Origin: Bacillota bacterium | GTDB lineage: Bacteria; Bacillota; Clostridia; Acetivibrionales; DTU013 | DNA length: 33,599 nucleotides | Direction: 5' to 3' | NCBI GenBank assembly: GCA_029778665.1 | Contig: JAKOPX010000303.1 | Coordinates: forward strand, 1-33,599 | Shown here: positions 261 through 18,722 of the stretch, piece by piece | Position numbering within the stretch: position 1 is the stretch's first letter | Layout of the letters: every line of letters starts with the position of its first letter | Translations under genes and position numbers: made by a program | Notes under the pieces: model-generated | Databases searched by the model: none | What the model was told of the DNA's origin: nothing | The model's input: the letters and a program-made list of their open reading frames with translations, nothing else

Positions 261-1514
261 TCAGGTGTCATCTCTCAGCAATTCAGCAAGCCAATCGCAT
301 TCTGTGCTGATGTTCCCGCATTCATTGAATGCTGCGAACCGCTTTATGCATTTTCCTATCGCTTTAGCCAGTTTCTTCGTAATCTTCACATTATCCTCGA
401 ACCATATGTTTTTTACTGTCAAAGTGCAGGTCTTTTTATCGGCAGCCGCTTCCAGACGGCCAACAAAAGAATCGCCGTAAATCAGCGGCAGGACATAGTG
501 TCCATATTTCCGCTTTTCCGCGGGAGTGTAGATCTCCCATGTATAGTCAAAGCCGAACAATGCGCGTATAAGTTTTCTGTCCCACATCAGGCAGTCAAGC
601 GGGGCAATAAGCTCACAGCGGGGTTTGAACCTGTCATTCTGCAGAACGGTCTCGATGAGCGGCAAATCATCCGAACGGCAGTACAGAATATCCTTCAGGC
701 CTTCCACCCTGACGGCGATGATTTTTCCTTCCCCGGCAAGTTGCCTGAACGCTTCGTCCCGCTCCCGGGAATCCAGGCCCCAGATGTTCAGCCATGCGTC
801 TGACGGCCGGTTCCACATAAGCCCAACAGCCCCGATGCGCCGCAATATGCGCCATTTTTTATGCCGGAATTCATCGGGGATCGGATCCGGGGCCCTAAGT
901 ATCTCCGGCGGTATATGTCTTTCAGCGAGATCGTAGAATTTCCTTGTACCGTTTTTATGGTGGATCACGAGCTCGCCAGTAGAATAAAGATGCTCCAGCA
1001 CTGACCGCGCCGCTTTCGTAGTTCCGCTCCAGTTGCCGCTCCAGTGGATGGATGAATGCCAACGGATACTGCCTTCTATCGGCAGGTCGTCGGAACTGAC
1101 AGGGCCATGCTCTCTGATATATGCCTTAGCCATCGCTTCCAGTCCGTCAAGCCCGTCAAACCGTTTGCCGCCCTCCCTGGCGGCTTTCCGGTAACGTTCG
1201 AAATACGGCCAGTCTTCAGTCGGGATAATGGAAAGGTTCTTGTCGGGGTAATCCACCAGTTTCCTATCGACATACAGCAGTTCATAGAGCATCCGCTTCG
1301 TGAACCCTCTGACACGGGATTGCAGGGTAAGCTCAGCGTTTTTGCCGCAGACGTCGACAGGGTCGAACTGGATGCATCCCGCCTGCCGCACAAAGTCGAG
1401 GGCACCCTGTTTGCCGGTGAACCTGTATTCGCCCAGCAGTCCATGCCTGAGCAGTATGAATTGCCTTGCCTGTCTGTTGGTTAAAGTGAACCCGGGAACC
1501 GCGTATTCCAGCAT
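261..1514 (-). CDS. Winged-helix DNA glycosylase of the YcaQ/AlkZ (HTH_42) family
   Basis: The 417-residue protein matches the YcaQ/AlkZ family, whose studied members unhook alkylated or crosslinked bases from DNA. Residues 49-51 are Q-F-D, the Q-hydrophobic-D catalytic motif of the YcaQ branch (the AlkZ branch has Q-x-Q). The rest reads as the usual tandem winged-helix fold, including the central region with RWHSSIHWSGNW and WNRPSDAWLNIWG. The ATG at 1514 was chosen because GGAGGG lies about six bases upstream; an in-frame start at 1535 lacks such a site. It seems to be a single-gene unit ending at the terminator at 15-61. Family assignment is good, while activity on crosslinks is inferred from the family. 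Confidence 0.8.
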   Translation of the reverse strand: MLEYAVPGFTLTNRQARQFILLRHGLLGEYRFTGKQGALDFVRQAGCIQFDPVDVCGKNAELTLQSRVRGFTKRMLYELLYVDRKLVDYPDKNLSIIPTEDWPYFERYRKAAREGGKRFDGLDGLEAMAKAYIREHGPVSSDDLPIEGSIRWHSSIHWSGNWSGTTKAARSVLEHLYSTGELVIHHKNGTRKFYDLAERHIPPEILRAPDPIPDEFRHKKWRILRRIGAVGLMWNRPSDAWLNIWGLDSRERDEAFRQLAGEGKIIAVRVEGLKDILYCRSDDLPLIETVLQNDRFKPRCELIAPLDCLMWDRKLIRALFGFDYTWEIYTPAEKRKYGHYVLPLIYGDSFVGRLEAAADKKTCTLTVKNIWFEDNVKITKKLAKAIGKCIKRFAAFNECGNISTECDWLAELLRDDT

Positions 1515-1635
1515 CGTTTTCCCTCCATGGCACACACGCAGATTTTCCTGAGGATACTGATAAAATCATTATAGCATATCATAGACAGTAAAACAGGGTA
1601 CCGGGCGCGTAAGCCGGCCGGCTGGCTGTTTATTG

Positions 1636-1681
1636 AAAAAAATCCTCCCGGCATTGTGTAAACACATAAACCGGAAGGATT
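1636..1681 (-). terminator. Rho-independent terminator, copy 2 of a repeated hairpin
   Basis: The stem AATCCTCCCGG (1641-1651) pairs with CCGGAAGGATT (1671-1681), with one G-U pair. On the minus strand it is followed by seven Ts (plus-strand A-run at 1636-1642). It closes the sigma/anti-sigma operon whose last codon is at 1751. The first 15 bases (TTATTGAAAAAAATC) are identical to the terminator near base 10. Confidence 0.85.
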
Positions 1682-1750
1682 CTCCTGATCGTCACGGTTC
1701 GGCGCCACAGCCCGAAAACAGGTTACTGACCTGCGTGCCCGGCGCCATTT

Positions 1751-2983
1751 TTACCTGGCGCCCTTTTCGTTCAAAAACGCCGCAAATCTTTCATTTACCT
1801 CGTACCTGCTGATAAAGCCGATGTTCCTGTAATATACGGAGTCAAAATAAATGCCGTTTTTGTTGTATATCCTGACGGTTATCGGGTCATCCAGGGCATT
1901 GCCCACCGAGCCTGCGCTGCCCTGCACAGATCCTGCAGCCCCGTCGCCTGAATCCATTATCATGCCGGGCGATGAGCCGGACGATGCCGCATTGCTGGTC
2001 GAAACCGGAGCATCTGCTGAAACCGGCGTGTCTGCCGTAACCTGGTATGCAATGGCCGCATCGTCCGTCTTTATGGGAAGATCAGTTGTAGCGTCCGGCC
2101 CGGCGGCATCCGGCGGGACTGCGGTACCCGTTGCACCCTCGGCCGCCGCCATTCTTTCCCGTTCCGCCATATCGATCTCAACGCCGTAATTGCCGGAGGT
2201 CGCCTTTCCACTGTAGTTGAACAGCCTGTCGAAATACTTGTCGCTGTTGTTTTTCAGTACGGAATAGAACCCATAGAATGCCGCGATAGCTTCCCTGTCG
2301 GTCAGTACACCCCTGATATCGGTGACCCCCTGCAGCTTGCTCTGCTCAGAATGGCCGATAAACAAGACCTTCGCGATATCATCGGCGCTGTTTATCCCAT
2401 ACAGTGCCAGGTATTCCGCGGCATCTTCGTCCTGGTTGTTGTTGTAGCTTTCAAACACAAAGAACCTGAACAGCCTGTAACTGTCATTGCATTTCACTGC
2501 AACGACCGCATCGCAGCCGGCCGGCACATACCTGAACACTTCGCTGCCTATGAGGCTTTCGTCCGGGCTGACCGTGATGTCTGCGATCTTCTCTCCGATA
2601 TCGCTGTCTTTTATCATAGCAGGCAGTCCGAATTCATTTCTCATCTCATCCGTCAGCAGGATGTAATGCCTGTCATCGATCCGGAACTGGTCCAGGAGCG
2701 GGGCAGCCGCATCCTCCCTGCCCATGCCGGCGGCCTGGTCCGTCATTACTCCCGGGACATTTCCGGGGGGCAGTTCGTTATTCTTCCACAGGGTGCCGTG
2801 CATCAGCACGCCTGCCGCCACCACGGCAACCATGGCAAATGCAGGTATGGCTCTCATGTAATAAATCCTGCGGCTTTCATTTTTCTTTCCGGCGTTCTGC
2901 ATTATGTTGTCCAGCATCCTCTTCCTGGCTGTTTCGTCCGGTTTTATCAAATCGAAAGAATTCTTCAGATCTTCCTTCTTCAC
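1751..2983 (-). CDS. Membrane-anchored anti-sigma factor
   Basis: This 410-residue protein has a short charged cytoplasmic N-terminus (1-43), one transmembrane segment (about 44-62) and a long external part. Residues of roughly 270-360 form a low-complexity Ala/Ser/Thr/Asp/Pro-rich stretch before a folded C-terminal tail. Its start overlaps the stop of the upstream ECF sigma gene by four bases (ATGA), the usual arrangement for a co-translated sigma/anti-sigma pair. The role, sequestering the sigma factor at the membrane until a signal arrives, is inferred from this layout and topology; no zinc-binding anti-sigma motif is visible. The stop codon lies inside a GGCGCC palindrome related to the dispersed GTGCC/GGCAC repeats. 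Confidence 0.75.
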   Translation of the reverse strand: MKKEDLKNSFDLIKPDETARKRMLDNIMQNAGKKNESRRIYYMRAIPAFAMVAVVAAGVLMHGTLWKNNELPPGNVPGVMTDQAAGMGREDAAAPLLDQFRIDDRHYILLTDEMRNEFGLPAMIKDSDIGEKIADITVSPDESLIGSEVFRYVPAGCDAVVAVKCNDSYRLFRFFVFESYNNNQDEDAAEYLALYGINSADDIAKVLFIGHSEQSKLQGVTDIRGVLTDREAIAAFYGFYSVLKNNSDKYFDRLFNYSGKATSGNYGVEIDMAERERMAAAEGATGTAVPPDAAGPDATTDLPIKTDDAAIAYQVTADTPVSADAPVSTSNAASSGSSPGMIMDSGDGAAGSVQGSAGSVGNALDDPITVRIYNKNGIYFDSVYYRNIGFISRYEVNERFAAFLNEKGAR

Positions 2984-3468
2984 GTGGAATCACCTTCCAT
3001 TTCCATTTTCAGCAGCTTCCTGCCCGTATGGAGATAGCCTCTGACAGTGGACTCGCTTTTTTTCAGTATCTTTGCTATTTCCACCGTTGAGTAGCCTTCA
3101 TAGTAATACAAATACACGGCAGTTTTTATCCTGGAGGGAAGTGCCAGAACCTTTTCAAGACTGCTGTCTATATTGAAATCCTGGTAAACCGCGGTCTCCC
3201 CGGCCTGATCGATACCCACCGTCTTCGACCACCAGTGCCTGAAGTGGTCCCTGCACAGATTCGAAGCTGTCCTGATAAGCCAGGCCTTTTCGTGTTCAGT
3301 ATCCCGGAAAACCGTCCTGTCCTTCATAAGCCTGATAAACATATTCTGGACCATATCCTCCGTATCAGGCACATTCTTCATGAACATGAAGCAAACACGG
3401 TAAACGGTATCGACATGGCGGTTATAGATTTCCAGCAGCTCTTCATTCGTACGCAACAAAGAACTCAA
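2980..3468 (-). CDS. ECF-type RNA polymerase sigma factor
   Basis: The 162-residue protein has sigma region 2 at about 10-75 (DTVYRVCFMFMKNVPDTEDMVQNMFIRLM and the following AWLIRTASNLCRDHFR) and region 4 at about 105-155 (LPSRIKTAVYLYYYEGYSTVEIAKILKKSESTVRGYLHTGRKLL, a helix-turn-helix). This is a minimal ECF sigma without region 3. The start is TTG at 3468, supported by a strong GGGAGGG site seven bases upstream. It is coupled to the anti-sigma gene by ATGA overlap. Targets are unknown; ECF factors often activate their own operon. Confidence 0.92.
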   Translation of the reverse strand: MSSLLRTNEELLEIYNRHVDTVYRVCFMFMKNVPDTEDMVQNMFIRLMKDRTVFRDTEHEKAWLIRTASNLCRDHFRHWWSKTVGIDQAGETAVYQDFNIDSSLEKVLALPSRIKTAVYLYYYEGYSTVEIAKILKKSESTVRGYLHTGRKLLKMEMEGDST

Positions 3469-3489: not shown

Positions 3490-3825
3490 CTAACACGATC
3501 GGGAACACAGAAACGTTTGATAATTTCCGTCATTTTCACAGTATACGACATCGATATCCTTCGTCTTTTCCAGTATATCACTCATAACTTCGTAAGCTTT
3601 TGCCCGTGTGAAATCGCCGCATTCCTGCGCGACCAGCTCCCAGTTGGGATGCCTTGCCACAGCCTCCTCCAGCGCACGGGTCCGGCCTATCTGCGGCGTG
3701 GAACCGATCGTTCCCTGGTCAGGGGCATCGCCGGCAAACCGGAAACCATACTGCTCCCAATCGATGTTGTTGCGGATGCCCTCGCGCACCACGATCTCAT
3801 CTTCGACAAGAAAAACCTTGAACAT
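3490..3825 (-). pseudogene. Chimeric remnant: response-regulator N-terminus fused in frame to a sugar-binding-protein fragment
   Basis: This 111-codon open frame joins two unrelated families. Residues 1 to about 36 (FKVFLVEDEIVVREGI and the following NNIDWEQYG) are the start of a YesN-type receiver domain, including the acidic pair but ending before the phosphoacceptor aspartate. From about residue 38 on (GTIGSTPQIGRTRALEEA, then a GDFTRAKAYEVM segment and DIDVVYCENDG) the sequence is the central part of a periplasmic sugar-binding protein (Peripla_BP_4). It breaks off soon after the conserved ND. The start has a GGGGAG site six bases upstream and a TATAAT box lies at 3879-3884. It is best read as the scar of a deletion or recombination that collapsed an older operon. 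The receiver segment differs from that of the intact regulator in this window. Confidence 0.8.
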
Positions 3826-3878
3826 ACCGTCTCCCCTTCCGGCAGGCGCAGCCATAAATTGGTATTAAACAGCAGGTA

Positions 3879-3884
3879 ATTATA
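3879..3884 (-). promoter_or_regulatory. Candidate -10 box upstream of the chimeric remnant
   Basis: TATAAT on the minus strand, about 55 bases upstream of the ATG at 3825. No good -35 was seen. If active it would transcribe the broken gene and possibly read into the sigma gene at 3468. Confidence 0.4.
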
Positions 3885-4030
3885 TAATATCAGGCGCTTA
3901 TTTGGAGTAGGTTAACAGCATAAGCTGACTGAAACTCCTGTCAGCCGGCTGGTAAGAAGCCCGCTTGCAAGATCATGTCGATCCGTTAAATCGCCACGGT
4001 AACTGCATTTACAGTATCCTCACGGATATC

Positions 4031-5314
4031 TCAATTCATAACTGACTGGCTGTCGTTCCTGTCGGTGTATCTGGCGGACGCAAGTATACCCAGCAGCATA
4101 AGGCCGATATTGAGGACAAACGGCAATATCCTTGAAATATCGCTCAGCAGGCCTCCAATATACCCGAAGGGCACACTGGCCAGCATGACTGTTGTCTGAA
4201 GCAGGGCCAGGATCCCGGAACGCTCATCGGGATCGGCATGTATCGCCACCAGAGACTCCCTGAGTGTGCTGAGGACGGATGCGCCCAACGCTTCAAAGAA
4301 TATCGAAAGCGTCAGCATCAGGTATCCCAAAACTCCTGTTCCCGTGATCGAGATCAGCAGGATACAGCTGATCATGTAGCAGATGAACCCTCCGTACATC
4401 GGCCATTTCAGCCTGGTCTGCCTTATCCCGGATATGACCGTGAAGAAAAGAATAATGGACATTATACTCTTTACCATCGGAAAAATGGGCAGTAATGTGT
4501 CCGGAACGCCAATGCGCCTGGATACGATGATCTGCCAGAAAGTCGAACCGAGCATTAATGCTATTTCCACCAGTATGCTGAAAATAATTGCAAAAACAGT
4601 GCCGCGGGAATTCACTATTTTCATGTATGCATTCCTGTACCCGGAAAGCATCTCTCTCCATGACTTGCCACGCGCTGCTTCGCGCCTTGCCCTGCCGACG
4701 GCCGTTTCCGTTGAAAACCTGTACAGGATCAGTATTTTTGCCGTCATGACGACAAAAGCGTTTATATACAATATCCGAATGGCGGGCGCCAGTGTCAGTT
4801 TTGCAACGAGCACCGACGAGATCGGGGCAAACAGCGCAGACATGTTGCCACAGATTATTACCCAGGAATATATATGGGTTATCCTGTCCTTTGGCGCATC
4901 CTCTACCAGCAGGCAATCCCAGGACACCTGCGTGATTTTCATCATCCCGTTAAACAGGGCGGCCACGATGAAATACCAGAAACCCTGGCTGGACGCCCAT
5001 ATAATGCAGGGAAGGCTCCACGCCAGAAAATCGAAAACCGCGGTGCTCTTCCTCCGCCCCATTTTGTCGATGATGGCGCCCGACAGGAATGCGCAGATCA
5101 TCTGGGAAAACATGTACACGGAGGTAACGATCCCTACCTGCACATCGTTCATGCCTAAAGTGAGCATATACACCGTTGCGTAGGGCAGGCACAGATTCAT
5201 CGACAGTCCCCACATAGGTTCAGTAAAAATGCAGGCCCGGGGATTGCCCTTCAGTTCGGTAAGTGTGCGGAACAACCCGTTCCTGCTCAGCAGTTTTTTC
5301 ATTTTGTTCCTCAT
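4031..5314 (-). CDS. Major facilitator superfamily transporter
   Basis: The 427-residue protein has about 12 hydrophobic segments. A motif-A-like loop GAIIDKMGRRKS follows the second one, and a central basic cytoplasmic loop (RARREAARGKSWREML) separates two six-helix halves. The substrate cannot be told from sequence; drug or sugar efflux is typical for this branch. ATG 5314 has GGAGAC upstream, and a second ATG at 5302 has GAGG six bases ahead, so the start is uncertain by four codons. The gene stands alone downstream of two tandem palindromes (5323-5392) that look like an operator. No terminator is evident downstream. Confidence 0.8.
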   Translation of the reverse strand: MRNKMKKLLSRNGLFRTLTELKGNPRACIFTEPMWGLSMNLCLPYATVYMLTLGMNDVQVGIVTSVYMFSQMICAFLSGAIIDKMGRRKSTAVFDFLAWSLPCIIWASSQGFWYFIVAALFNGMMKITQVSWDCLLVEDAPKDRITHIYSWVIICGNMSALFAPISSVLVAKLTLAPAIRILYINAFVVMTAKILILYRFSTETAVGRARREAARGKSWREMLSGYRNAYMKIVNSRGTVFAIIFSILVEIALMLGSTFWQIIVSRRIGVPDTLLPIFPMVKSIMSIILFFTVISGIRQTRLKWPMYGGFICYMISCILLISITGTGVLGYLMLTLSIFFEALGASVLSTLRESLVAIHADPDERSGILALLQTTVMLASVPFGYIGGLLSDISRILPFVLNIGLMLLGILASARYTDRNDSQSVMN

Positions 5315-5460: not shown

Positions 5461-6828
5461 TTACTTCTGCCTCTGGTCCAGCGGTATATACGGACGCCTG
5501 TCTGAAACCGACTTGTAAGCCGGTCTGATGATCTTGCCCGCATTCACTATTTCTTCCATACGGTGGGCCGCCCATCCGGGCAGTCGCGCTATTGCGAACA
5601 GGGGCGTGAACAACTGAAGAGGAAGTCCGAGCATATCGTAGACTAATCCGCTGTAGAAATCCACGTTTGCGCTGACACCCTTGTAGATCTTCCTCTTTTC
5701 CCTGATGATCTCGGGCGCCAGTCTCTCTACCAGCGAATAGAGCCTGAACTCGTCCATGCGTTCCTTTTCCTTCGAGAGGCTTTCAACGAATTTCTTGAGC
5801 ACTGTGGCACGCGGATCGGAAAGTGAATATACGGCATGCCCCATCCCGTATATCAGGCCGGAGCGGTCGAATTCCTTTTTGTCCAGGAGCCGCTCCAGGT
5901 AATCAGCGACCTGGCCTTCGTCGGTCCAGTCGGATACCTTGGCCTTCATATCCTCAAACATCTGCACGACCTTGATATTAGCGCCGCCGTGCCTGGGTCC
6001 CTTCAGCGAGCAGAGTGCAGCCGTGATGGCCGAATATGTGTCTGTTCCCGAAGAAGTCACCACGTGTGTGGTAAAGGTGGAATTGTTTCCACCTCCGTGT
6101 TCGGCGTGCAATACCAGCGCCAGATCGAGTATCTTGGCTTCCAGCGGCGTATATTTGCTGTCCGGCCTCAGTATATACAGTATGTTCTCCGCAGTCGACA
6201 GTTCAGGCTGCGGCCGATGGATAAACATGCTCTTATGGTCATGATAATGACAGTAAGCCTGGTATCCATAGACGGACAGCAGCGGGAACAGAGCGATCAG
6301 CTGCAGCGACTGCCGCAGTACATTGGGTATCGAATTGTCATCTGCATTGTCATCATAGGAATACATGGTCAGGACACTTCTGGCAAGCGTGTTCATCATG
6401 TCCTGACTCGGAGCCTTCATAATAATGTCACGCACGAAGTTCGTAGGCAGCGTGCGGTAATTGGACAGTATCCTGCAGAAATTGTCCAGCTGCTCTGCAT
6501 CAGGCAATTCGCCGAACAACAGCAGATAGGCCACTTCTTCAAAGCCGAAACGGTCCTCTTTTATAAAGCCTTCCACGATCTCTTCAACGTCGATTCCCCT
6601 GTAGTACAGTTTTCCTTCACAGGGAACCTCCTTGCCGTCGACGATCTTTGAAGAAACGATTTCCGATATGACCGTCAGCCCCGTGAGTACGCCCTTTCCG
6701 TTTATATCACGCAAACCTCTTTTAACGTCATATTTGTCGTAGAGGGAAGGATCGATCCTGCTGTTGCTTTCAAACCGGGATGAAAGTTCCATCAACTCGG
6801 GAGTTATCGCGGAGAAAGGGTTAGCCAT
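5461..6828 (-). CDS. gltA: Citrate synthase
   Basis: Citrate synthase condenses acetyl-CoA and oxaloacetate, here probably feeding 2-oxoglutarate and glutamate synthesis in an anaerobe. The 455-residue protein carries the expected catalytic residues: His244 in HAEHGGGNNST, His331 in GMGHAVYSLSDPR and Asp390 in NVDFYSG. The GPRHGGAN oxaloacetate/CoA loop is at 278-284. It is longer than the roughly 370-430 residues of most bacterial enzymes because of an extended N-terminus, as in other clostridial homologues. AGGAG lies about nine bases upstream of the start. It is monocistronic, with a promoter at 6869-6897 and a terminator at 5414-5439. No aconitase or isocitrate dehydrogenase gene is adjacent. 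Confidence 0.95.
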   Translation of the reverse strand: MANPFSAITPELMELSSRFESNSRIDPSLYDKYDVKRGLRDINGKGVLTGLTVISEIVSSKIVDGKEVPCEGKLYYRGIDVEEIVEGFIKEDRFGFEEVAYLLLFGELPDAEQLDNFCRILSNYRTLPTNFVRDIIMKAPSQDMMNTLARSVLTMYSYDDNADDNSIPNVLRQSLQLIALFPLLSVYGYQAYCHYHDHKSMFIHRPQPELSTAENILYILRPDSKYTPLEAKILDLALVLHAEHGGGNNSTFTTHVVTSSGTDTYSAITAALCSLKGPRHGGANIKVVQMFEDMKAKVSDWTDEGQVADYLERLLDKKEFDRSGLIYGMGHAVYSLSDPRATVLKKFVESLSKEKERMDEFRLYSLVERLAPEIIREKRKIYKGVSANVDFYSGLVYDMLGLPLQLFTPLFAIARLPGWAAHRMEEIVNAGKIIRPAYKSVSDRRPYIPLDQRQK

Positions 6829-9752: not shown

Positions 9753-10829
9753 TCACCGCACATTCCTGTAAACCTGCTCGGCGGTGAAAAAACCATCCTT
9801 TATCACCGTATCGTCGATATTTTCCCCTGTGACAAGAATGGGTCTGTATATTTTGCATGGGATTTCATATTCGCCGTTGGATATGATTTCGTGCGGTCCT
9901 GTATCCCTGCCTTCCGCCATTTTTACAGCTATTTCCGCAGCCCCCTCGGCCAGGACGCTTATGGGTTTGTAGACGGTGCATCCCTGCGTGCCCTCCACTA
10001 TCCTCCTGCATGCGCCGAGTTCAGCGTCCTGCCCCGTGACGAACACTTCCCCGGCGAGCCTGTTTTCGCTCAGGGCAGTTATAGCGCCCTCAGCCAGCTG
10101 GTCATTTGCCGCAATGATCGCATCCACCTTCTGTCCGCTGTTCAATATCCTGCTTACGAATTCATATGAACCTTCCGTGCGCCAGTCATCGATCCAGGTC
10201 TCTCCGATGACACTGATGGCGCCCGTCTCGATATACGGCCTGAGTACACTGTAATAACCTTCATTGAGCATAAAGGAATTGTTGTCCCTCTCGGTGCCGT
10301 TAAGGATCAGGTAATTGCCTTCATGGACTTTTTCCACGGCGGCCTTGCCCATCAGGCGGCCTACTTCCGTGCTATCGAAGGATATATAAAAGTCGATGTC
10401 GACATCCCTTATCATGCGGTCATATGCGATTACCCTGACATTACGGTTATGGGCATACCTGACAAGGTCCTTCAGGCTGTCCTTGTCGTAAGCGACGATT
10501 ACGAGGACATCCACCCCCTGGTTTATCATTTCGATCCCGATTTCCCTCTGGCGGTCACTGTCTTCATATGCGTTTTTTACAATGACTTCCGCCCCAAGCT
10601 TCTCCGCTTTCGCGACAAAAATGTCCCTGTCCCGCTGCCACCTCTGGACCGTCATAGTTTCATAAATGAACCCTATTTTCGGAACCTTATTCTCCTCTGT
10701 CCCGGAAGCCCTGTCCTGCCTGCAGCCGGCCAGAAACAGCAGAAATACGGACACGGTCAGCACAACAGGAACTAGTACAGCCAGCCGCTTCCCATTATGC
10801 CCTGGTCTGGATACAATCGCCCTTTTCAT
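9753..10829 (-). CDS. Sugar-binding lipoprotein (Peripla_BP_4, xylose-binding-like)
   Basis: The 358-residue protein has a lipoprotein signal peptide (hydrophobic about 15-35, lipobox LAGC), then a two-lobed periplasmic-binding-protein fold. Diagnostic segments are KIGFIYETMTVQRWQRDRDIF, GVDVLVIVAYDKDSL, VRVIAYDRMIRDVDIDFYISFD, DAIIAANDQLAEGAI and FVTGQDAE. It is a diverged relative of the binding protein at 18723-19817. It lies downstream of the response regulator on the same strand, separated by a 583-base spacer filled with tandem repeats. The start has a GGGAGGG site eight bases upstream. It has no transport partners of its own nearby, so it may feed the permease at 15872-18642 or act as a sugar buffer or sensor. 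Confidence 0.85.
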   Translation of the reverse strand: MKRAIVSRPGHNGKRLAVLVPVVLTVSVFLLFLAGCRQDRASGTEENKVPKIGFIYETMTVQRWQRDRDIFVAKAEKLGAEVIVKNAYEDSDRQREIGIEMINQGVDVLVIVAYDKDSLKDLVRYAHNRNVRVIAYDRMIRDVDIDFYISFDSTEVGRLMGKAAVEKVHEGNYLILNGTERDNNSFMLNEGYYSVLRPYIETGAISVIGETWIDDWRTEGSYEFVSRILNSGQKVDAIIAANDQLAEGAITALSENRLAGEVFVTGQDAELGACRRIVEGTQGCTVYKPISVLAEGAAEIAVKMAEGRDTGPHEIISNGEYEIPCKIYRPILVTGENIDDTVIKDGFFTAEQVYRNVR

Positions 10830-10901
10830 GGCAAATCCCTCCCGGATGGCTTAATGTGCTCCATTGCAAATCTTTTGCCCAGTCAACGTAAAATTCACAA
10901 C

Positions 10902-11245
10902 GGCTGTTATGCGTATTTGCAACAGGCTGCCACACTATATTTGCAACAGTTGCAATGCGAAATAACAACAGGCTGTCACGCAATAATTCAACGGCTGCCG
11001 TGCAGTTTTACACCAAGGCTGCCACACTGTTTTGCAACAGTTGCTATGCGAAATAACAACAGGCTGTCACGCAACAATTTCAACGGCTGCCGTGCAGTTT
11101 TACACCAAGGCTGCCACACTATTTTGCAACAGTTGCAATGCGAAATAACAACAGGCTGTCACGCAATAATTTCAACGGCTGCCGTGCAGTTTTACACCAA
11201 GGCTGCCACACTATTTTGCAACAGAGCTATTCGGATCTGCAACAA
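10902..11245. repeat. 23-bp tandem array with a 92-bp higher-order repeat
   Basis: GGCTGCCACACT occurs at 10925, 11017, 11109 and 11201, exactly 92 bases apart. The copies at 11017 and 11109 differ at only three positions. Each 92-base block consists of four related units of 22-24 bases (GGCTGYCAYGCA-type starts and CAACA/CACCAA ends). One extra unit precedes the block at 10902, and degraded units follow to about 11263. It occupies most of the 583-base spacer between the response regulator and the third binding-protein gene. The identical repeats have no unique spacers, so it is not a CRISPR array. Confidence 0.95.
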
Positions 11246-11291
11246 GGCTTGCATGCAAAATCAGCGTCTGCCTGCCATGCTGTCCGGTTGA

Positions 11292-11390
11292 AAACCGCAT
11301 GTTTTCCCGAACCGTATGTGTTTTCCAAACGACATGTATTGAAAACCGCTGCTTCCCAAACCATATACTTTCCAAACCACATGCATTCCT
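11292..11390. repeat. Six-unit degenerate repeat, period 15-18 bp
   Basis: AAACC-type words followed by rcATGy recur at 11292, 11309, 11327, 11343, 11358 and 11374. The units are unrelated in sequence to the adjacent 23-bp array. The array ends 23 bases after the 3' end of the response regulator gene. Confidence 0.65.
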
Positions 11391-11412
11391 GCCGCGTGCC
11401 CGGGCCGGGCCG

Positions 11413-13080
11413 TCATGCTCCGCCCAGCGCCTGCTTCTGGAAATCCGTCGGAGACAGCCCGACATGCTTCTTGAACAATTTGCTGAAGTAATTCGGGTCG
11501 CTGTATCCGGACATGTAGCAAACTTCCTTTATGGAATACCTGTTTTCCTTCAGCAGTTTCTTGGCATTTTCTATCCGGACCGATGTCAGCCTTTCAATGA
11601 AGTTCTCGCCCGTCTCATTTTTATAAAGCCTGCTCAGGTACTGAGGGCTGATGTGCAGTTCCTTCGAAATGTCCTCCAGGTTCAGGTCCTGGCTGAATCT
11701 CTCGTTTATCAGCCTGTTTGTCATTTCGACCAGCTTCCCTATATTGCTTTTTTTCCTGGCGATAATACGGCAGGCTATCTGCCGAACCTCTTCCGTGCAT
11801 ATCTGCTCGAATTCCTCCCTGGATCTGCAGCACAGTATCCGTTTGAAATAACATCCCGGCTCGGTATTGTCCCTGATGCCGTTTTCCGTGGCTATACGCC
11901 GGATCGCAGCCATCATTTCGATTATCCTGTAGTGGATGCTGTCCTGTTCGAAGAAATTGGGGTGTTTCCGGAAAATATCGGAGAGTATCGTGAGGCACCT
12001 CTGCACATCGCCGTTTTCCAGGGAAATGATGAGCTTCTGTTCCAGCAGCGATATCTCATATCCGATATCGTATATATCTGGGGCAATATCATCTATGTGC
12101 ACTATCCTGCCGTCTTCATCACTGTTGAGCGCTTTCAGCGCCTCCTGGTATGAGATCATGATGTCCTCGTCCCCGTGGATCCTGCCTATCCCGGCTTTGA
12201 ATTCTATGTCATACTTTTTCTCCAGCACATCCATGACTTCCTCTATGCAGGATATCGCCTGCACTCTCTGCTGATACAGGTCGCCGATGCTCTGGGCGAC
12301 ATAAACGACCACCCGGTCCAGCATCACCGGACCCACTATGCATTTGCACCTGTGCTTCAGGTTGTTTTTAAGCAGTGTGTACAACTCCTCATCAGCGAAA
12401 CTGTCTCCCAAACGGGTGTCATAACTGTCTTTCATGACTTTCCATTCATTCCTGCCTTCGCAGTCTTTCCACTCTTTCCTGTCTACCCTGTCATTCCATT
12501 CTTTCCTGTCTTTTTTCCTGAAAGTGAGCACGACAATGAAACCCGTTTCATTGTCGATGTCGAAGAACTCCTTTTTATACCTGCTTATATCGTTTTTCTG
12601 CGCCTGGGCAAAAAGCAGGGAATATATGAAACTGTGCTCTACGGCCGAGAGCATTTTTTCGATCCTTTCCTTCGCCTCAAGCTCCCACCTGTATTTGCGC
12701 CTCTCATCATCCAACTGGTTCACTATCCTCCGGAGGGTGTCCACCAGCCTTTCCTTTTTCACAGGTTTTATCAGGTACTCGCTGACTCCCAGTTCAACAG
12801 CCTGTTTCGCATACTCGAAAAACTCGTATACGGATACTACGACTATTTTTACATCATTATGGACCTTCTTTATTTCCTTGACTGCATCAAGCCCGTTTAT
12901 ACCAGGCATTTTGATATCAGTCAGTATGATATCCGGCTTAATGGTCAGTGTTTTTTCTATTGCTTCCCTTCCGGATCTCGCTGTGGCGATTATCCTGATA
13001 TTGCTGAATTCTTTTTCCACTATATGCCGGACAGATTCGATCATTATCTGCTCATCATCGCATACCATAAGGCTGTACAC
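11413..13080 (-). CDS. Response regulator, YesN/AraC type
   Basis: The 555-residue protein has an N-terminal receiver domain with acidic pair Asp8-Asp9, phosphoacceptor Asp55 (DIILTDIKMPG) and the conserved Lys in YLIKPVKKERL. A long linker domain follows. The C-terminus (about 455-550) is an AraC-type double helix-turn-helix (LNLEDISKELHISPQYLS and IKEVCYMSGYSDPNYFSKLF). The linker holds a short repetitive stretch (RKEWNDRVDRKEWKDCE). The start is GTG at 13080 behind an excellent GGAGGTGA site. It follows the kinase by 30 bases and is clearly its partner. The likely role is activation of the sugar transporter genes and/or the downstream binding protein when phosphorylated. Confidence 0.93.
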   Translation of the reverse strand: MYSLMVCDDEQIMIESVRHIVEKEFSNIRIIATARSGREAIEKTLTIKPDIILTDIKMPGINGLDAVKEIKKVHNDVKIVVVSVYEFFEYAKQAVELGVSEYLIKPVKKERLVDTLRRIVNQLDDERRKYRWELEAKERIEKMLSAVEHSFIYSLLFAQAQKNDISRYKKEFFDIDNETGFIVVLTFRKKDRKEWNDRVDRKEWKDCEGRNEWKVMKDSYDTRLGDSFADEELYTLLKNNLKHRCKCIVGPVMLDRVVVYVAQSIGDLYQQRVQAISCIEEVMDVLEKKYDIEFKAGIGRIHGDEDIMISYQEALKALNSDEDGRIVHIDDIAPDIYDIGYEISLLEQKLIISLENGDVQRCLTILSDIFRKHPNFFEQDSIHYRIIEMMAAIRRIATENGIRDNTEPGCYFKRILCCRSREEFEQICTEEVRQIACRIIARKKSNIGKLVEMTNRLINERFSQDLNLEDISKELHISPQYLSRLYKNETGENFIERLTSVRIENAKKLLKENRYSIKEVCYMSGYSDPNYFSKLFKKHVGLSPTDFQKQALGGA

Positions 13081-13110
13081 TCCGGATCACCTCCAAAGTT
13101 TCCTTTCGGT

Positions 13111-14619
13111 TCAGCCATTGCCCGCACCGCATGGTATCTTAAGAACCACTTTAGTGCCCCGGCCTGGTGCACTCTCAACATCGACGACATCCTCGCATCT
13201 GAAAAACAGCCTCAGCCTCTGTACCACGTTGTATATACCGATTCCTGTCGTATGGCCTGTTTCGTCGCTTTCAACGGACTGGAACTTCAGTATCTTCTGC
13301 CTTGTCTCCTCGTCCATCCCGGCCCCGTTGTCCTCGACGCCGATCATGACACTGTCGCCGCATTTTCCCAGCGATATCCTTATGACTCCACCGTCCTCCA
13401 TGTTGCCTATGCCATGGAGCGTCGCATTTTCCACCAGCGGCTGTATTATCAGCGGCGGCACTTTCATGTCAAGAAGGCCCGGGTCAATGTCGTACTCGAA
13501 CCTGACCGTATCGCCGAAACGGACTATAAACAGGTCTTCGTAAGCCTTTATGGTATCCAGTTCGTCTTTTATCCTTACTGTCCTGTCAAGGCTCTTGACA
13601 TTATACCGCAGTATCTGGGACAGGCTGTCGAGGAAGGCCGACGTCCTGTCCGCACCCTCCATAGTTGCAAGCTGGACGCCCGCGTTGAGAGTGTTGAAAA
13701 GGAAATGGGGGTTTATCTGCATCTGCAGCGCTTTCATCTCAGCATCCGCCAGAAGAGACTGCATCCTCAGGTTCTCGATCTGCTGTTCCAGCAGCTTTGC
13801 TTCAGTATCCGCCTTGTTGTGCAGTTCACTTATATAGTTCCTTATGCTGTGCTTCATCGCATTGAAGGCATTTGCCATGACGCCGAGCTCGTCCTGTGAA
13901 AACACCATGACATCTTCCACGTCAAAATTGCCCCTGGATATTTCCTCAGCCGAATGCGCCAGCTTAATGATCGGCTTCGTCATGTTCCAGGTCAGGTACG
14001 CAATGACAAGTACATTCAGCAGTATAACGGATATGGTGAGGACAAGGTTTGCCGTATGGAGCCTTCCAAGGTTCTCTGACATGCCCAGGTACTGGGTGGT
14101 GTTTTTTTTAAGGATGTTCAGGCTTAGCCTGTCTGCGTATGTACGTATGTAACTGTTTATCCTGTACGCTTCGGCATACCTGGCGATATATTCATCGGCA
14201 TTGTCCATCATTTTGGCATCTACAGCTGCATCAGCCTCATTGAAATAGGATTCCGCCATGTATGCTATATCCTTGTATATGAGGTCATTCTGGTCGTATA
14301 TCCCGTGCAGTTCGGAAAACATGTCCTGTGCCTTTTCAGTGATGATCTCCCTGTACCTGTAGTAATTGATGAGACTGTCGGAGTCTGACGTCACAAGGTA
14401 ATTAACCAGGTGGTTGTCCACAGTGTTCAGATCGTTCAGGAAGTTTTCGATCTCAACATTAGCTGCGAACATCTCGTCCATTTTCCTTATTATATTTCGC
14501 GACAGTCCAAGCACGAAAATGCCCGCAGCACTTGTAAGGGCCATCGTAAGCACAAAAACCGCGATTATCCTTGTCTGCAGGCTGTTAAACATCCTGTCCC
14601 AGAATATCCCCATTGCCAT
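13111..14619 (-). CDS. Sensor histidine kinase, YesM/LytS type
   Basis: The 502-residue protein has transmembrane segments at about 18-38 and 190-210 around a largely helical extracellular domain. HAMP follows at about 211-263, then a coiled linker, then the His-kinase domain with His305 in INPHFLFNTLN. The ATP-binding domain shows the N box QPLVENATLHG (393-403) and the G box VEDNGAGMD (428-436). AGAGGT precedes the start by five bases. Gene order binding protein-kinase-regulator suggests that the anchored binding protein (14646-15659) contacts the extracellular domain and relays sugar occupancy. Confidence 0.93.
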   Translation of the reverse strand: MAMGIFWDRMFNSLQTRIIAVFVLTMALTSAAGIFVLGLSRNIIRKMDEMFAANVEIENFLNDLNTVDNHLVNYLVTSDSDSLINYYRYREIITEKAQDMFSELHGIYDQNDLIYKDIAYMAESYFNEADAAVDAKMMDNADEYIARYAEAYRINSYIRTYADRLSLNILKKNTTQYLGMSENLGRLHTANLVLTISVILLNVLVIAYLTWNMTKPIIKLAHSAEEISRGNFDVEDVMVFSQDELGVMANAFNAMKHSIRNYISELHNKADTEAKLLEQQIENLRMQSLLADAEMKALQMQINPHFLFNTLNAGVQLATMEGADRTSAFLDSLSQILRYNVKSLDRTVRIKDELDTIKAYEDLFIVRFGDTVRFEYDIDPGLLDMKVPPLIIQPLVENATLHGIGNMEDGGVIRISLGKCGDSVMIGVEDNGAGMDEETRQKILKFQSVESDETGHTTGIGIYNVVQRLRLFFRCEDVVDVESAPGRGTKVVLKIPCGAGNG

Positions 14620-14645
14620 TTACCTCTGCCGCAACAGCACCTTTA

Positions 14646-15659
14646 TTATTTCTGATCGATGTTTATTTTTGTGTATATGTCCGTATCGATGTAAATATAG
14701 TCGGACTGGAACGAATCCCCGACATTGCCGCATAAAATCTCCACAGCCTTGTAACCCGCTTCGTATCCGTTCCTGTCCAGGACCCCGAATACTATCCCCT
14801 TTCTGATATAATGCCTGATTTCTTCGGTGAGGCCTGTACCGACTATGGCGACGTCACCTACAAGGTTCCGTTCCACTATGACACGCGCAGCCGCTGCAGT
14901 GTCCTTGGCATTGGTGCAGAAAATGACATCGACCTCGGAATGCTGCGTCAATATGTCCCTCGTCAGGTCTTCGGCACCGAGCAGATCGCTGCTCCTGTAA
15001 AGCGTGCAGAGAAGGTTGATCTTTTTTTCCTTCTCTATTACGCTTTTTATCCCATTCATCATGATATCGCTCTGTGATATCAGTGTCTTGTCGGTGCCGT
15101 TCCGGCCCTCGTCAGAAAGGATAACAGCCAGGTCGACGGGATGCTCCTTGCCGGATGCCTGGGATATCATTTTTGCCGCTTTCTCGCCATAATCGTAGAA
15201 ATTGTTCCCGACATATGAAATCCTGTTGCCGTCCACGGTCTCCGCCGATCCCACCACGATGTGTATCCCGGATTCGGCTGCCCTGTTGAGAGCCCTCGAA
15301 TACTCTTCCGAATTCCTGCCGTTGACAATTATGCCGTCAACCCTGGATTTGCTTGCAATATCCACGTATTCGATTATTTTGTCCGTACCGTCCGGGCCGG
15401 ATATCGGATTGTATTCGATAGCGGCGTTATGGACCTTTCCGGCTTCAAAAACGCCTTCCTTGAAGCTCTGCCAGTATTCTTCGTCATCGCCGGTATGTAT
15501 TATCAGTGAAAAATGGTATTTCGGATTCCCGCTGAATACATCGACAGTATCGTCATTGTAAGCTTCATTCACCCTATTGAGGTAGTATATTGCCAAAACT
15601 GCAGATGTGACCACAGTGGCAAACAGAAGGATCACGGATATCTTGTACAGCCATTTCAT
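14646..15659 (-). CDS. Membrane-anchored sugar-binding protein, likely co-sensor of the kinase
   Basis: The 337-residue protein has one N-terminal transmembrane helix (about 7-26) and no lipobox cysteine, so it is tethered to the membrane. The rest is a Peripla_BP_4 domain: FSLIIHTGDDEEYWQSFKEG, VDGIIVNGRNSEEY, ISYVGNNFYDYGEKAAKMI, EVDVIFCTNAKDTAAAA, VAIVGTG and VFGVLDRNGYEAG. It is first in a three-gene unit with the kinase (26-base gap) and regulator, behind its own extended -10 promoter. GGAGGGGG lies seven bases before the start. Such proteins typically bind a sugar and dock on the kinase; here that is an inference from order and topology. Confidence 0.85.
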   Translation of the reverse strand: MKWLYKISVILLFATVVTSAVLAIYYLNRVNEAYNDDTVDVFSGNPKYHFSLIIHTGDDEEYWQSFKEGVFEAGKVHNAAIEYNPISGPDGTDKIIEYVDIASKSRVDGIIVNGRNSEEYSRALNRAAESGIHIVVGSAETVDGNRISYVGNNFYDYGEKAAKMISQASGKEHPVDLAVILSDEGRNGTDKTLISQSDIMMNGIKSVIEKEKKINLLCTLYRSSDLLGAEDLTRDILTQHSEVDVIFCTNAKDTAAAARVIVERNLVGDVAIVGTGLTEEIRHYIRKGIVFGVLDRNGYEAGYKAVEILCGNVGDSFQSDYIYIDTDIYTKINIDQK

Positions 15660-15705
15660 TACGATGCCCCCTCCGGCACGGAACGGTCTGCAGCAGTTTA
15701 TAATT

Positions 15706-15714
15706 ATTATACCA
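15706..15714 (-). promoter_or_regulatory. Extended -10 promoter of the sensor operon
   Basis: The minus strand reads TGGTATAAT (15714-15706), an extended -10 box, about 47 bases upstream of the anchored binding protein start. No good -35 was seen, as is common with extended -10 promoters. The spacer up to 15871 also holds clustered ACCGG words (15786-15818), but no clear terminator for the permease gene. Confidence 0.6.
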
Positions 15715-15871
15715 TATTTTGGATTTGTGTATCTTGTTTTGTAGCTTCATAAAAGCAAAAGGGCGCTCCGGTCAGACCGTACCGAACCGGACCGGGTTGA
15801 CTGAACCAAACCAAACCGGTTAAAGCGGACGTGACTCCGAAACAGCCCGGTAATGCATCTTTTATTTCCAT

Positions 15872-17095
15872 TCAGCCGAGCCTGGATTTCGATTTCGAGT
15901 ACATGTCGAATGCCACTGCAAGCAGCACCACCATACCTTTAGCCACTGACTGCAGGAACACGTCCAGTCCCATGATCGACATGCCGTTGTTCATGACACC
16001 CATTATGAAAGCTCCAATGACAGCGCCCCATATGGTCCCGACGCCGCCGTATGCAGAAGCGCCGCCTATGAAACACGCACCTATGGCATCCAGTTCGAAG
16101 CTCACACCGACATTCGGCGATGCAGCCATCAGCCTGCCGGCGGTAACTATGCCTGCTACTCCGGCCAAAAGTCCCATGTTAGAATATACGAGGAACATTA
16201 TCTTCCTGGTGTTGACGCCGGAAAGTTCCGCTGCTTTAATGTTTCCGCCCATGGCGTAGATATGCCGTCCAAGCACGGTCCTGTTAGCTATGAAATTATA
16301 GATGCCATACAAAACGACAAGCAGGATGAGCATTATCGGCAGTCCGTCATCCATCGCCAGCCAGTAGGAAAACAGGTTGATGGCGATGAAGAATGCAATG
16401 ACCTTCGCGATGACCAGCCGCAGCGGCTGTACTTCATACCCGAGTCTTTTCTTGCTTTGCCTGCTGAAAATCACGACAATCACATATATGACGGATAATA
16501 TAAGACCGGTTACAAGCATGGTCGCATTCAGATATTCGGGCTTGTTCTGCAGTTGCAGCAGATCACCGATGCGCAGGAAATCAGGCACAGTATTCGGAAT
16601 GATATCAGGGACGGAGCCCGTTCCTACAGTGACATACAACCCTGAAAGCGGCAACGTCTGCCCATCCAGGATGATATTGTTGATGCCGCGGAAAATAAGC
16701 ATGCCGGACAGCGTCGCAATAAACGGAGGAACTTTGACATACGCTATCCAGAAACCCTGCCAGATACCTGACAGAAGGCCTGTCAGCAGGCTGAGTATAA
16801 TCGCCAGCCACGAAGGGAGGCCAAGCCTCGCTAACGTCAATCCCGACATGGCACTGACAAGTGCGACCAGCGAACCGACTGAAAGGTCGACGTTTCCGCC
16901 GGTCAGTATACAGAACATCATCCCTATGGCAAGTATGAGCACATAAGCGTTCTGGCGGATCAGCGCCGAGATGTTCCTCGGCCAGATCAGCCTGCCGCCC
17001 GTCATGAACCCGAAGAATATCATTATGGCAACCAGTGCGATGATCATGCCGTATTGCCGCAAACTGCGATTCAAGAAATCCCTGAACCTGTTCAT
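15872..17095 (-). CDS. Sugar ABC transporter permease (MmsB/GguB/XylH-like)
   Basis: The 407-residue BPD_transp_2 permease has about ten hydrophobic segments. Family blocks are NISALIRQNAYVLILAIGM, ILTGGNVDLSVGSLVAL, the GLLSGIWQGFWIAYVKVPPFIATLSGM region, YAMGGNIKAAELSGVN and GACFIGGASAYGGVGTIWGAVIGA. The extended mid-region (about 125-265) fits the XylH/GguB subgroup rather than RbsC. It starts 11 bases after the ATPase stop with GGGGGG upstream, so the two are co-translated. It would form the membrane channel for sugars delivered by the binding proteins. Confidence 0.93.
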   Translation of the reverse strand: MNRFRDFLNRSLRQYGMIIALVAIMIFFGFMTGGRLIWPRNISALIRQNAYVLILAIGMMFCILTGGNVDLSVGSLVALVSAMSGLTLARLGLPSWLAIILSLLTGLLSGIWQGFWIAYVKVPPFIATLSGMLIFRGINNIILDGQTLPLSGLYVTVGTGSVPDIIPNTVPDFLRIGDLLQLQNKPEYLNATMLVTGLILSVIYVIVVIFSRQSKKRLGYEVQPLRLVIAKVIAFFIAINLFSYWLAMDDGLPIMLILLVVLYGIYNFIANRTVLGRHIYAMGGNIKAAELSGVNTRKIMFLVYSNMGLLAGVAGIVTAGRLMAASPNVGVSFELDAIGACFIGGASAYGGVGTIWGAVIGAFIMGVMNNGMSIMGLDVFLQSVAKGMVVLLAVAFDMYSKSKSRLG

Positions 17096-17106
17096 GTGTT
17101 CCCCCC

Positions 17107-18642
17107 CTATCGTCCGGCTGAACTTCTGATTATTATCGACATGATTTCTTCCTGGGTGGCTTCACTCGTTTTCATCTCACCCACGACGCGTCCTTCATTG
17201 ATTATGTACAGGCGGTCGGTGATCCCGAGTATCTCGGGCAGTTCGGAAGAGATCATGATTATGCACTTCCCGGCGTCGGCCAACTGCAGGATTATCTTGT
17301 ATATCTCATACTTGGCACCGACGTCGATCCCTCTTGTCGGCTCGTCGAGTATCAGCACATCGGGTGCTGCGAATATCCACTTGCTTAATACGACTTTCTG
17401 CTGGTTGCCCCCGGAAAGGTTGCCCACTTTCTGGAACACGCTTGTCGATTTGATATTGAACCGATCCCTGTAATCCTTGCCTATCAGGATCTCCTCATCT
17501 TCGTTTATGACATAGCGGTTCGTTATAGCTTTCAGATTCGCCAGCGTGATGTTCCTTTTGATGTCCTGTATATGTATAAGCCCAGCCGTCTTCCTGTCCT
17601 CAGTTACATAGGCTATGCCGTTTTCTATCGCCTGGCTGATATTGTGCAGCGTGATTTCCTTTCCGTCCTTGATAAGTGTCCCGCTGATTTTTTTGCCGTA
17701 CGCCCTGCCGAATACGCTCATCGCAAGTTCCGTCCTCCCTGCGCCCATGAGGCCGGCAAGGCCGACTATCTCGCCTTTCCTGACATACAGGTTCACATGG
17801 TCTATTATGATCCTCTCTTCATCAAGGGGATCATACACGACCCAGTCCCTTATTTCAAAACCTACATCACCTATTTTCGGCGTACGCTTCGGAAAACGGT
17901 CCGTAAGTTCGCGCCCGACCATTCCCCTGATTATCCGGTTTTCACTGACAGGCACGGAGTTGTCCAGTGTCTCGATGGTCTTTCCGTCCCTGAGAACAGT
18001 TATGCTGTGCGCGATCTTTATTACCTCGTGGAGTTTATGGGAGATCAGTATGCATGTAAGTCCATGCTCCCTGTTGAGCGTCTGCAGGAGTCTGAGTAGA
18101 TGGTCGGAATCATCGTCATTCAGGGCTGCCGTCGGTTCATCCAGTATCAGCAGTTCACAGTTTTTGCCCAGTGCCTTGGCTATCTCGACCAGCTGCTGTT
18201 TGCCTACACCTATGTTCTTTACCTGTGTCGTGTGTTTTTCATTGAGGCCGACCCTCTTCATCAGTCCGGCAGCTTCCCTGTTGGTTTCATCCCAGTTGAT
18301 TACTCCGTTCCGGGCCCGTTCATTCCCAAGGAATATATTCTCCGCGATCGTCATGAACGGGTTGAGCGCAAGCTCCTGGTGTATTATGGCTATGCCTGCC
18401 GCTTCGCTGTCACGTATGTTCCTGAACCTGCACTCGGCACCCTTGAATATGATCTCACCTGAGTATGTACCGTAAGGGTATATCCCGCTGAGAACGTTCA
18501 TCAGCGTAGATTTGCCGGCTCCATTCTCCCCGACCAGTGCATGTATCTCGCCTTTCCTGACCTTGAAGGTGACATCGGAAAGAGCGACCACCCCGGGGAA
18601 CTCCTTGGTGATGTTTTTCATTACAAGGATATATTCCGACAT
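17107..18642 (-). CDS. Sugar ABC transporter ATPase with two nucleotide-binding domains (MmsA/GguA-like)
   Basis: The 511-residue protein is a fused double ATPase typical of monosaccharide importers. Domain 1 has a canonical Walker A (GENGAGKST, 38-46) and [10 protein letters not shown], but a degenerate signature (IGVGKQQ). Domain 2 has a degenerate Walker A ([10 protein letters not shown]) and a good signature and Walker B ([27 protein letters not shown]). This split of good and poor sites is normal for the RbsA/MglA/GguA class. AGAGGGG precedes the start. An 80-base gap with a hairpin separates it from the upstream binding-protein gene. Confidence 0.95.
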
Positions 18643-18684
18643 TTTTAGCCCCTCTTAACGCAGGATTTGGTCCAATTCAATAAA

Positions 18685-18709
18685 ATGGCGGCAGATATGC
18701 TGCCGCCAT
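18685..18709 (-). terminator. Intra-operon hairpin/attenuator between binding protein and ATPase
   Basis: A 10-bp perfect stem (ATGGCGGCAG at 18685-18694 with 18700-18709), loop ATATG, is followed on the minus strand by TTTTATTG. A leaky terminator or 3' stabiliser here would give more binding protein than ATPase and permease. Confidence 0.8.
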
Positions 18710-18722
18710 CACCAAAAAAGCA

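Follow-up and report, generated by a model that had tools for sequence, protein, structure and literature searches.

A fused regulator and sugar-binding-protein frame as the probable scar of a deleted sugar sensor and importer operon in a clostridial genome

In Ruminiclostridium cellulolyticum, the CuaD-CuaS-CuaR system comprises a sugar-binding protein, a sensor kinase, and a receiver-AraC regulator, whose phosphorylation site is given as D55 (PMC10384115). A second description pairs the protein XylFII with the sensor domain of LytS (PMC6321045). Regarding gene loss, a study by Kuo and Ochman in 2010 describes the removal of young inactivated genes by deletion in Salmonella (PMC2916853).

Here, we describe a locus at which fragments of a response regulator gene and a sugar-binding-protein gene are fused. 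The analysis covered a stretch of 33,599 nucleotides (hereafter, the window) that makes up contig JAKOPX010000303.1 of a clostridial draft genome (GCA_029778665.1). We consider it very probable that the 111-codon frame at this locus is the nonfunctional scar of a recently deleted sugar sensor and importer operon, left by either two deletions or one complex event. Read in this way, the locus is a clean example of a whole sensor-plus-importer operon vanishing from a bacterial lineage, and it illustrates how readers and annotation pipelines can mistake such a deletion scar for a fusion gene.

The fused frame and its parent genes

On the minus strand, positions 3825 to 3490 translate as one frame of 111 codons without an internal stop, followed by a stop codon. 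Codons 1 to 36 encode the N terminus of an AraC-type response regulator, whereas codons 37 to 100 match residues 174 to 237 of a YtfQ-like sugar-binding protein. The last 11 codons (101 to 111) and the stop belong to neither parent and are, bar a few bases at the join, spacer DNA from upstream of a sigma factor gene. Two joins lie in the frame, one at 3718/3719 and one at approximately 3520 to 3526. A first-pass annotation had read this stretch as an in-frame chimera of receiver residues 1 to 36 and a Peripla_BP_4 protein, a reading borne out by the translation, by identities to the sister genome G001, by Pfam, and by structure matches. It had also assigned everything after the receiver piece to the Peripla_BP_4 core, which is correct up to residue 100 and incorrect for the 11 spacer-derived codons, and it had placed a single junction at about 3715, which corresponds to the first join and misses the second.

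The regulator fragment (3719 to 3825, minus strand) consists of codons 1 to 35 plus two bases of codon 36 and is 94% identical in amino acid sequence to residues 1 to 36 of a 538-residue Response_reg/HTH_18 protein encoded in G001, a genome of the same genus. At the DNA level, homology to G001 spans 3719 to 3845, ribosome-binding region included, with 83.5% identity over 127 nt. Pfam lists no Response_reg match for the 36-residue piece; in the solved-structure search, residues 2 to 36 match the response regulator 6swf (E = 8.6e-5). The translation of residues 1 to 36 contains a readable VEDE motif, which we take to be the acidic pair of the receiver N-terminal strand.

The binding-protein fragment (3526 to 3718, minus strand) corresponds to residues 174 to 237 of the 332 residues of a G001 sugar-binding protein, SBP1, to which it is 90.6% identical in amino acids and 80.8% identical in DNA over 193 nt. 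Its Peripla_BP_4 match covers residues 37 to 103 of the frame (E = 2.6e-8) with a score of 34.2 bits, slightly below the curated cut-off of 35.1, and its best match among solved structures is YtfQ (6hbd; E = 6e-11). Judged from these sequence comparisons, the homology of both pieces to G001 is far beyond chance. The nonhomologous tail (3490 to 3525, minus strand) aligns with DNA upstream of the sigma factor gene in G001 and in G003, another genome of the genus. No family or structure match from the Pfam, NCBIfam, or solved-structure searches spans both; thus, the halves represent different families, and the chimera reading stands.

The coding DNA that remains in the scar amounts to 107 bp from one parent and 193 bp from the other, and the frame lacks most of both folds. 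The receiver piece ends at residue 36, before the phosphoacceptor aspartate (D55 in the G001 protein, by count), and the HTH_18 output domain, found at residues 457 to 534 of the G001 regulator, is absent. The binding-protein piece has no export or lipoprotein signal and represents one fifth of the length of its parent. Because it has no phosphoacceptor, a product of the frame would be unable to act as a receiver, and because it has no export signal and most of both lobes are missing, it would be unable to act as a binding protein. The start codon and the ribosome-binding region upstream of the frame are kept. A scan around the scar for promoters and terminators returned two promoter-like sites, against 1.0 expected, and no terminator.

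In the alignments, regulator codon 36 breaks off after its second base at 3718/3719 and is completed by the third position of an SBP1 codon, which keeps the frame; by chance, one in three first joins would be in frame. Within 25 bases of the breakpoints, the G001 parents share strings of at most 4 nt at one join and 6 nt at the other, against a mean of 5.3 nt for 500 random pairs; because these parents are approximately 82% identical to the window, the comparison could overlook a short microhomology that the true ancestor had. Repeat-mediated deletion was considered and rejected, as the shared sequence at the joins does not exceed chance. The sequence around the joins thus offers no apparent repeat that would explain recombination or an assembler error.

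The intact operon in a sister genome and its distribution

In the window, an MFS transporter gene is followed by approximately 205 bp, the scar, and the sigma factor gene. The MFS gene (4031 to 5314, minus strand; MFS_1), whose ortholog lies upstream of the intact operon in G001, marks the left-hand flank of the presumed deletion. The right-hand flank is the ECF-type sigma factor gene (2980 to 3468, minus strand; Sigma70_r2/r4), whose ortholog follows the operon in G001. A citrate-synthase family gene (5461 to 6828, minus strand; Citrate_synt) is a collinear flank in both G001 and a further genome of the genus, G004. Behind the sigma factor gene lies a gene (1751 to 2983, minus strand) that has no significant Pfam match and has orthologs directly behind the sigma factor gene in G003 (68%) and G001 (59%); its position suggests that the product is an anti-sigma factor.

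Other features of the window deserve mention. Between the scar and the MFS gene (3826 to 4030), clear homology to G001 is limited to approximately 20 bp upstream of the regulator start. At the start of the contig, some 57 bp (13 to 69) match G003 DNA (L092, 2055 to 2112) inside a G003 stretch that itself matches window positions 1487 to 2083, which suggests a short repeat. Also, positions 9753 to 19817 hold a second sugar sensor and importer cluster, with binding proteins, an AraC-type regulator, a histidine kinase, a permease, and an ABC ATPase; parts of it are distantly related to the operon discussed here, and parts are collinear in G001 and G004.

The first-pass annotation had postulated a deletion within a sensor and transport operon and had named sister genomes as the place to look for an intact copy at this locus; G001 supplies one between the same flanks. 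Its gene order is MFS, three other genes, regulator, kinase, SBP1, a second binding protein (SBP2), ABC ATPase, two permeases, chemoreceptor, and sigma factor. Both halves of the fused frame are found on G001 contig C59 in the same order and on the same strand, with the regulator start at 16598, the binding-protein piece at 20223, and the histidine kinase gene between them. To the left, the window and G001 are collinear through genes for a sugar-binding protein, an amino-acid-kinase-like protein, a citrate-synthase-like protein, and the MFS transporter, with DNA that is 77 to 82% identical. To the right, the final 102 bases of C59, located 3' of the chemoreceptor gene, match window positions 3526 to 3428 at 83%, just upstream of and into the sigma factor gene, which resumes in G001 contig C127; the first 24 bases of C127 are the last 24 of C59. 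The G001 operon therefore sits between the MFS and sigma factor genes, the same flanks as those of the scar.

Measured against G001, 3,517 bp are missing from the window between regulator codon 36 and SBP1 residue 174. A further 7,904 bp (about 7,900) are missing between SBP1 residue 237 and the region upstream of the sigma factor gene; this second length is approximate, as the corresponding part of the G001 contig includes two runs of N. Three G001 genes that follow the MFS gene on the opposite strand, coding for DHHW, MBOAT, and 166-residue proteins, are also missing in the window; this third structural difference may be either a loss in the window or a gain in G001.

The G001 operon proteins are 100% identical to those on the public contig DGEE01000065.1 (Hungateiclostridiaceae bacterium UBA3934; L035). 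YtfQ (6hbd) is the best solved-structure match of SBP1 (E = 1.8e-75), and the best NCBIfam matches of the ATPase and the two permeases are YtfR, YtfT, and YjfF. Set against the equivalog cut-offs, the bit scores are 230 of 510 for SBP1, 655 of 850 for the ATPase, and 199 of 535 and 239 of 363 for the permeases; all fall well below, and the matches therefore point to the kind of importer and not to a particular sugar.

The window's own genome is a draft of 562 contigs that is 83.9% complete, so absence of operon DNA from it is not proof of loss. A 14.8-kb query of G001 DNA, running from the end of the MFS gene into the chemoreceptor gene, produced five matches there: the abutting stretches 3526 to 3718 and 3719 to 3845, two short matches to the chemoreceptor, and one short match to the ATPase. 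Protein searches with the G001 kinase, ATPase, and SBP2 returned distant paralogs only (best identities of 36%, 42%, and 25%, respectively), among them members of the sugar system at 9753 to 19817. Other operon-specific DNA was not found in this draft genome, and relocation of the operon was rejected for this draft on the basis of both DNA and protein searches. The annotation had supposed that another related system once existed or still exists elsewhere; the first possibility fits, with the system having stood at this very locus, and the system was not found elsewhere in the draft. It had also held that the receiver piece does not come from the window's own intact regulator (11413 to 13080). 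We rejected that origin too, as tblastn with the 36-residue piece finds no match there at E values up to 10. The full G001 regulator aligns with the 11413 to 13080 gene at 31% over the first 129 residues only.

When the chimera was searched against 60 genomes, the window's own included, matches at E values up to 1e-8 were found in 18, and the fusion was present in none of the other 17 (of 59) with such matches. Each match row covers one half, except for one on contig C13 of G002 (residues 21 to 100, 33%), which lies in a 357-residue frame that also matches SBP2. In 31 public loci taken from a collection scan, gene order was read from tblastn matches at E values up to 1e-20 and at least 40% identity, with overlapping weaker matches removed. 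The order regulator, kinase, SBP1 is kept in 19 of these 31 loci, G001's contig included; contig ends truncate six of the remaining 12, and six are arranged differently or fall below the 40% identity cut. Thermoclostridium caenicola DSM 19027 (L059) is one example of an intact relative. The halves are fused in none of the 31. They are present apart in 22 (spaced by 3,457 to 3,637 bp in 19 and by 2,315 bp in one, and in reversed order in two), with the reservation that in several of the weaker loci the second half is matched at only 31 to 54% and may be another binding protein. The nine remaining loci have the regulator half only, and there the regulator runs past residue 36. The idea of a fusion family was rejected, given that fused halves occur neither in the 31 public loci nor among the matches of the 59 other genomes.

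Within the genus, five genomes were searched: two (G001 and G002) have the regulator, kinase, and SBP1, in another two (G003 and G004) these genes were not found, and approximately 320 bp are left in the window's genome. In G002, the genes are split between contigs: C59 carries SBP1, another binding protein that is nearer to SBP1 than to SBP2, the ATPase, and permeases, and the regulator and kinase lie at one end of C107. G004 keeps SBP2, the ATPase gene, and the first permease; it has no match to SBP1 or to the regulator start and only distant kinases, and its homology to G001 stops approximately 160 bp past the SBP1 stop. G003 has no close match to any of the regulator, kinase, SBP1, SBP2, and ATPase. 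Because both genomes are drafts (89% for G003 and 91% for G004) and one flank gene is unmatched in each (MFS in G003, the sigma factor in G004), these absences may partly reflect missing contigs, and the two losses lend weak support to a deletion in the window.

Two further observations concern decay of related operons. The operon ATPase gene of G004 (L089, contig C241, 1218 to 2744) has one internal TGA, suggestive of ongoing erosion or of a sequencing error. On another public contig (L058, 3537 to 6442), a full-length regulator is followed approximately 300 bp later by SBP2, with the kinase and SBP1 not detected; this is a separate, similar loss that affected the sensor genes of a different clostridial genome.

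Age and origin of the loss

Compared with G001, the regulator piece has a dN of 0.024 and a dS of 1.92 (dN/dS, 0.012), and the SBP1 piece has a dN of 0.052 and a dS of 1.68 (dN/dS, 0.031); five intact neighboring genes give dN/dS values of 0.019 to 0.115. Residues private to the window number 0 in 36 for the regulator and 1 in 64 for SBP1, against none and three for G001, in a comparison of 30 regulator and 19 SBP1 rows at 65% identity or more in which G001 appears twice (L035 and L066). With approximately 234 nonsynonymous sites and a half-dS of roughly 0.5 to 0.9, free drift over much of the time since the split would be expected to yield more than 100 protein changes. Even when every one of the 9.5 nonsynonymous differences is assigned to the window and to the period that followed the loss, the loss is dated to about the final tenth of the interval since divergence from G001; this dating is rough, as it rests on 100 codons with synonymous sites near saturation. 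Because the fragments show no accelerated protein change, the losses appear to be recent relative to the split from G001, unless assembly error made them. The label "older" that had been given to the operon should be used with caution, since the fragments are almost free of window-specific protein changes. The same pattern would also be expected from a mis-join of intact genes or from a frame still under selection, and because the constraint is inherited from the parent genes, dN/dS is uninformative on present function. For relaxed constraint after inactivation, the pieces may be too young or too short to reveal decay.

We propose a source operon that would have comprised an AraC-type regulator, a His_kinase-type sensor kinase, a dedicated SBP1, a YtfQRT/YjfF-like ABC importer, and a chemoreceptor and that would have been taken out by two illegitimate deletions or by a single complex event. 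The first loss, of 3.5 kb, would have begun at regulator codon 36 and extended through SBP1 residue 173; the second, of about 7.9 kb, would have begun at SBP1 residue 238 and ended just upstream of the sigma factor gene. The first join would be in frame by luck, and translation would continue for 11 codons into the spacer.

A pair of closely spaced deletions separated by 193 bp of undecayed sequence is less parsimonious than one deletion. A single replication-slippage or template-switch event in which about 11.6 kb was lost and 193 bp from the interior stayed behind as filler would agree with the retained order and strand and with the lack of decay in the pieces between and beside the joins, which places the joins close in time. 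However, there is no diagnostic microhomology, and two successive deletions give the same structure; we regard this particular mechanism as unlikely. It is quite improbable, in our estimation, that one complex event (about 11.6 kb lost, 193 bp kept) made an open frame with a usable start beside the sigma factor gene, from which a new transcript or a raw-material peptide might arise. A different objection to the scar reading is that undecayed fragments, looking like parts of working genes, are also what an assembler would produce by joining distant pieces of an operon still intact in the organism. The joins are seen in one genome of the species, and that genome is a draft of many contigs and incomplete. 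Moreover, contig ends lie next to the sigma factor gene in both G003 and G001, and one G004 contig ends just past the MFS gene; the region is therefore awkward to assemble. Nevertheless, an artefact needs two separate joins with order and strand kept in each, the shared strings of 4 and 6 nt (random mean, 5.3) are too short to mislead an assembler, and the rest of the operon DNA was not found anywhere else in the draft genome. We judge misassembly to be very unlikely, and the loss is probably real biology.

It is scarcely credible that the frame encodes a new functional small protein, a regulator-sugar-binding fusion kept by selection. Its open frame with a start codon and ribosome-binding region, and a dN/dS that is low relative to the parent genes, are what such a protein would have, but the phosphoacceptor, the export signal, and most of both folds are gone, and fusions are absent from all 31 public loci and from the matches of the 59 other genomes. 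Furthermore, the constraint is the old one of two parent genes, and the tail is spacer DNA. The fused frame is thus best regarded as a dead scar that probably has no function.

Comparison with known systems

The intact G001 operon resembles the clostridial three-component sensors CuaDSR and XylFII-LytS in having a binding protein beside a kinase and, in the case of CuaDSR, in adding a receiver-AraC regulator. It is a relative by layout only, and XylFII was not among the best 60 of 70 solved-structure matches of SBP1. YesN is the partner regulator of XylFII-LytS. Aspartate 55 of the G001 regulator (by count) bears the same number as the phosphorylation site given for CuaR, and by analogy with these systems, SBP1 may serve the kinase. 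Adjacent genes for a regulator, a sensor kinase, and an extracellular sugar-binding protein occur in 19 of the 31 public loci and not in the window's scar, where, unlike in the three-component sensors, this operon's kinase, regulator, and binding protein are gone but for the remnant itself.

The importer part is closest to the galactofuranose-type ABC importer YtfQRT-YjfF, as evidenced by SBP1, the fragment in the window, and the G001 ATPase and permeases, all of which match YtfQ, YtfR, YtfT, or YjfF best. It differs in that the G001 scores lie below the equivalog cut-offs, and the window keeps only 64 residues.

Otherwise, the locus records an ordinary, well-resolved gene-loss event and not a new protein. 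It is like described bacterial pseudogenes and deletion scars in the removal of genes by deletion; it differs from them in that fragments of two genes have ended up in one frame, resembling a fusion gene.
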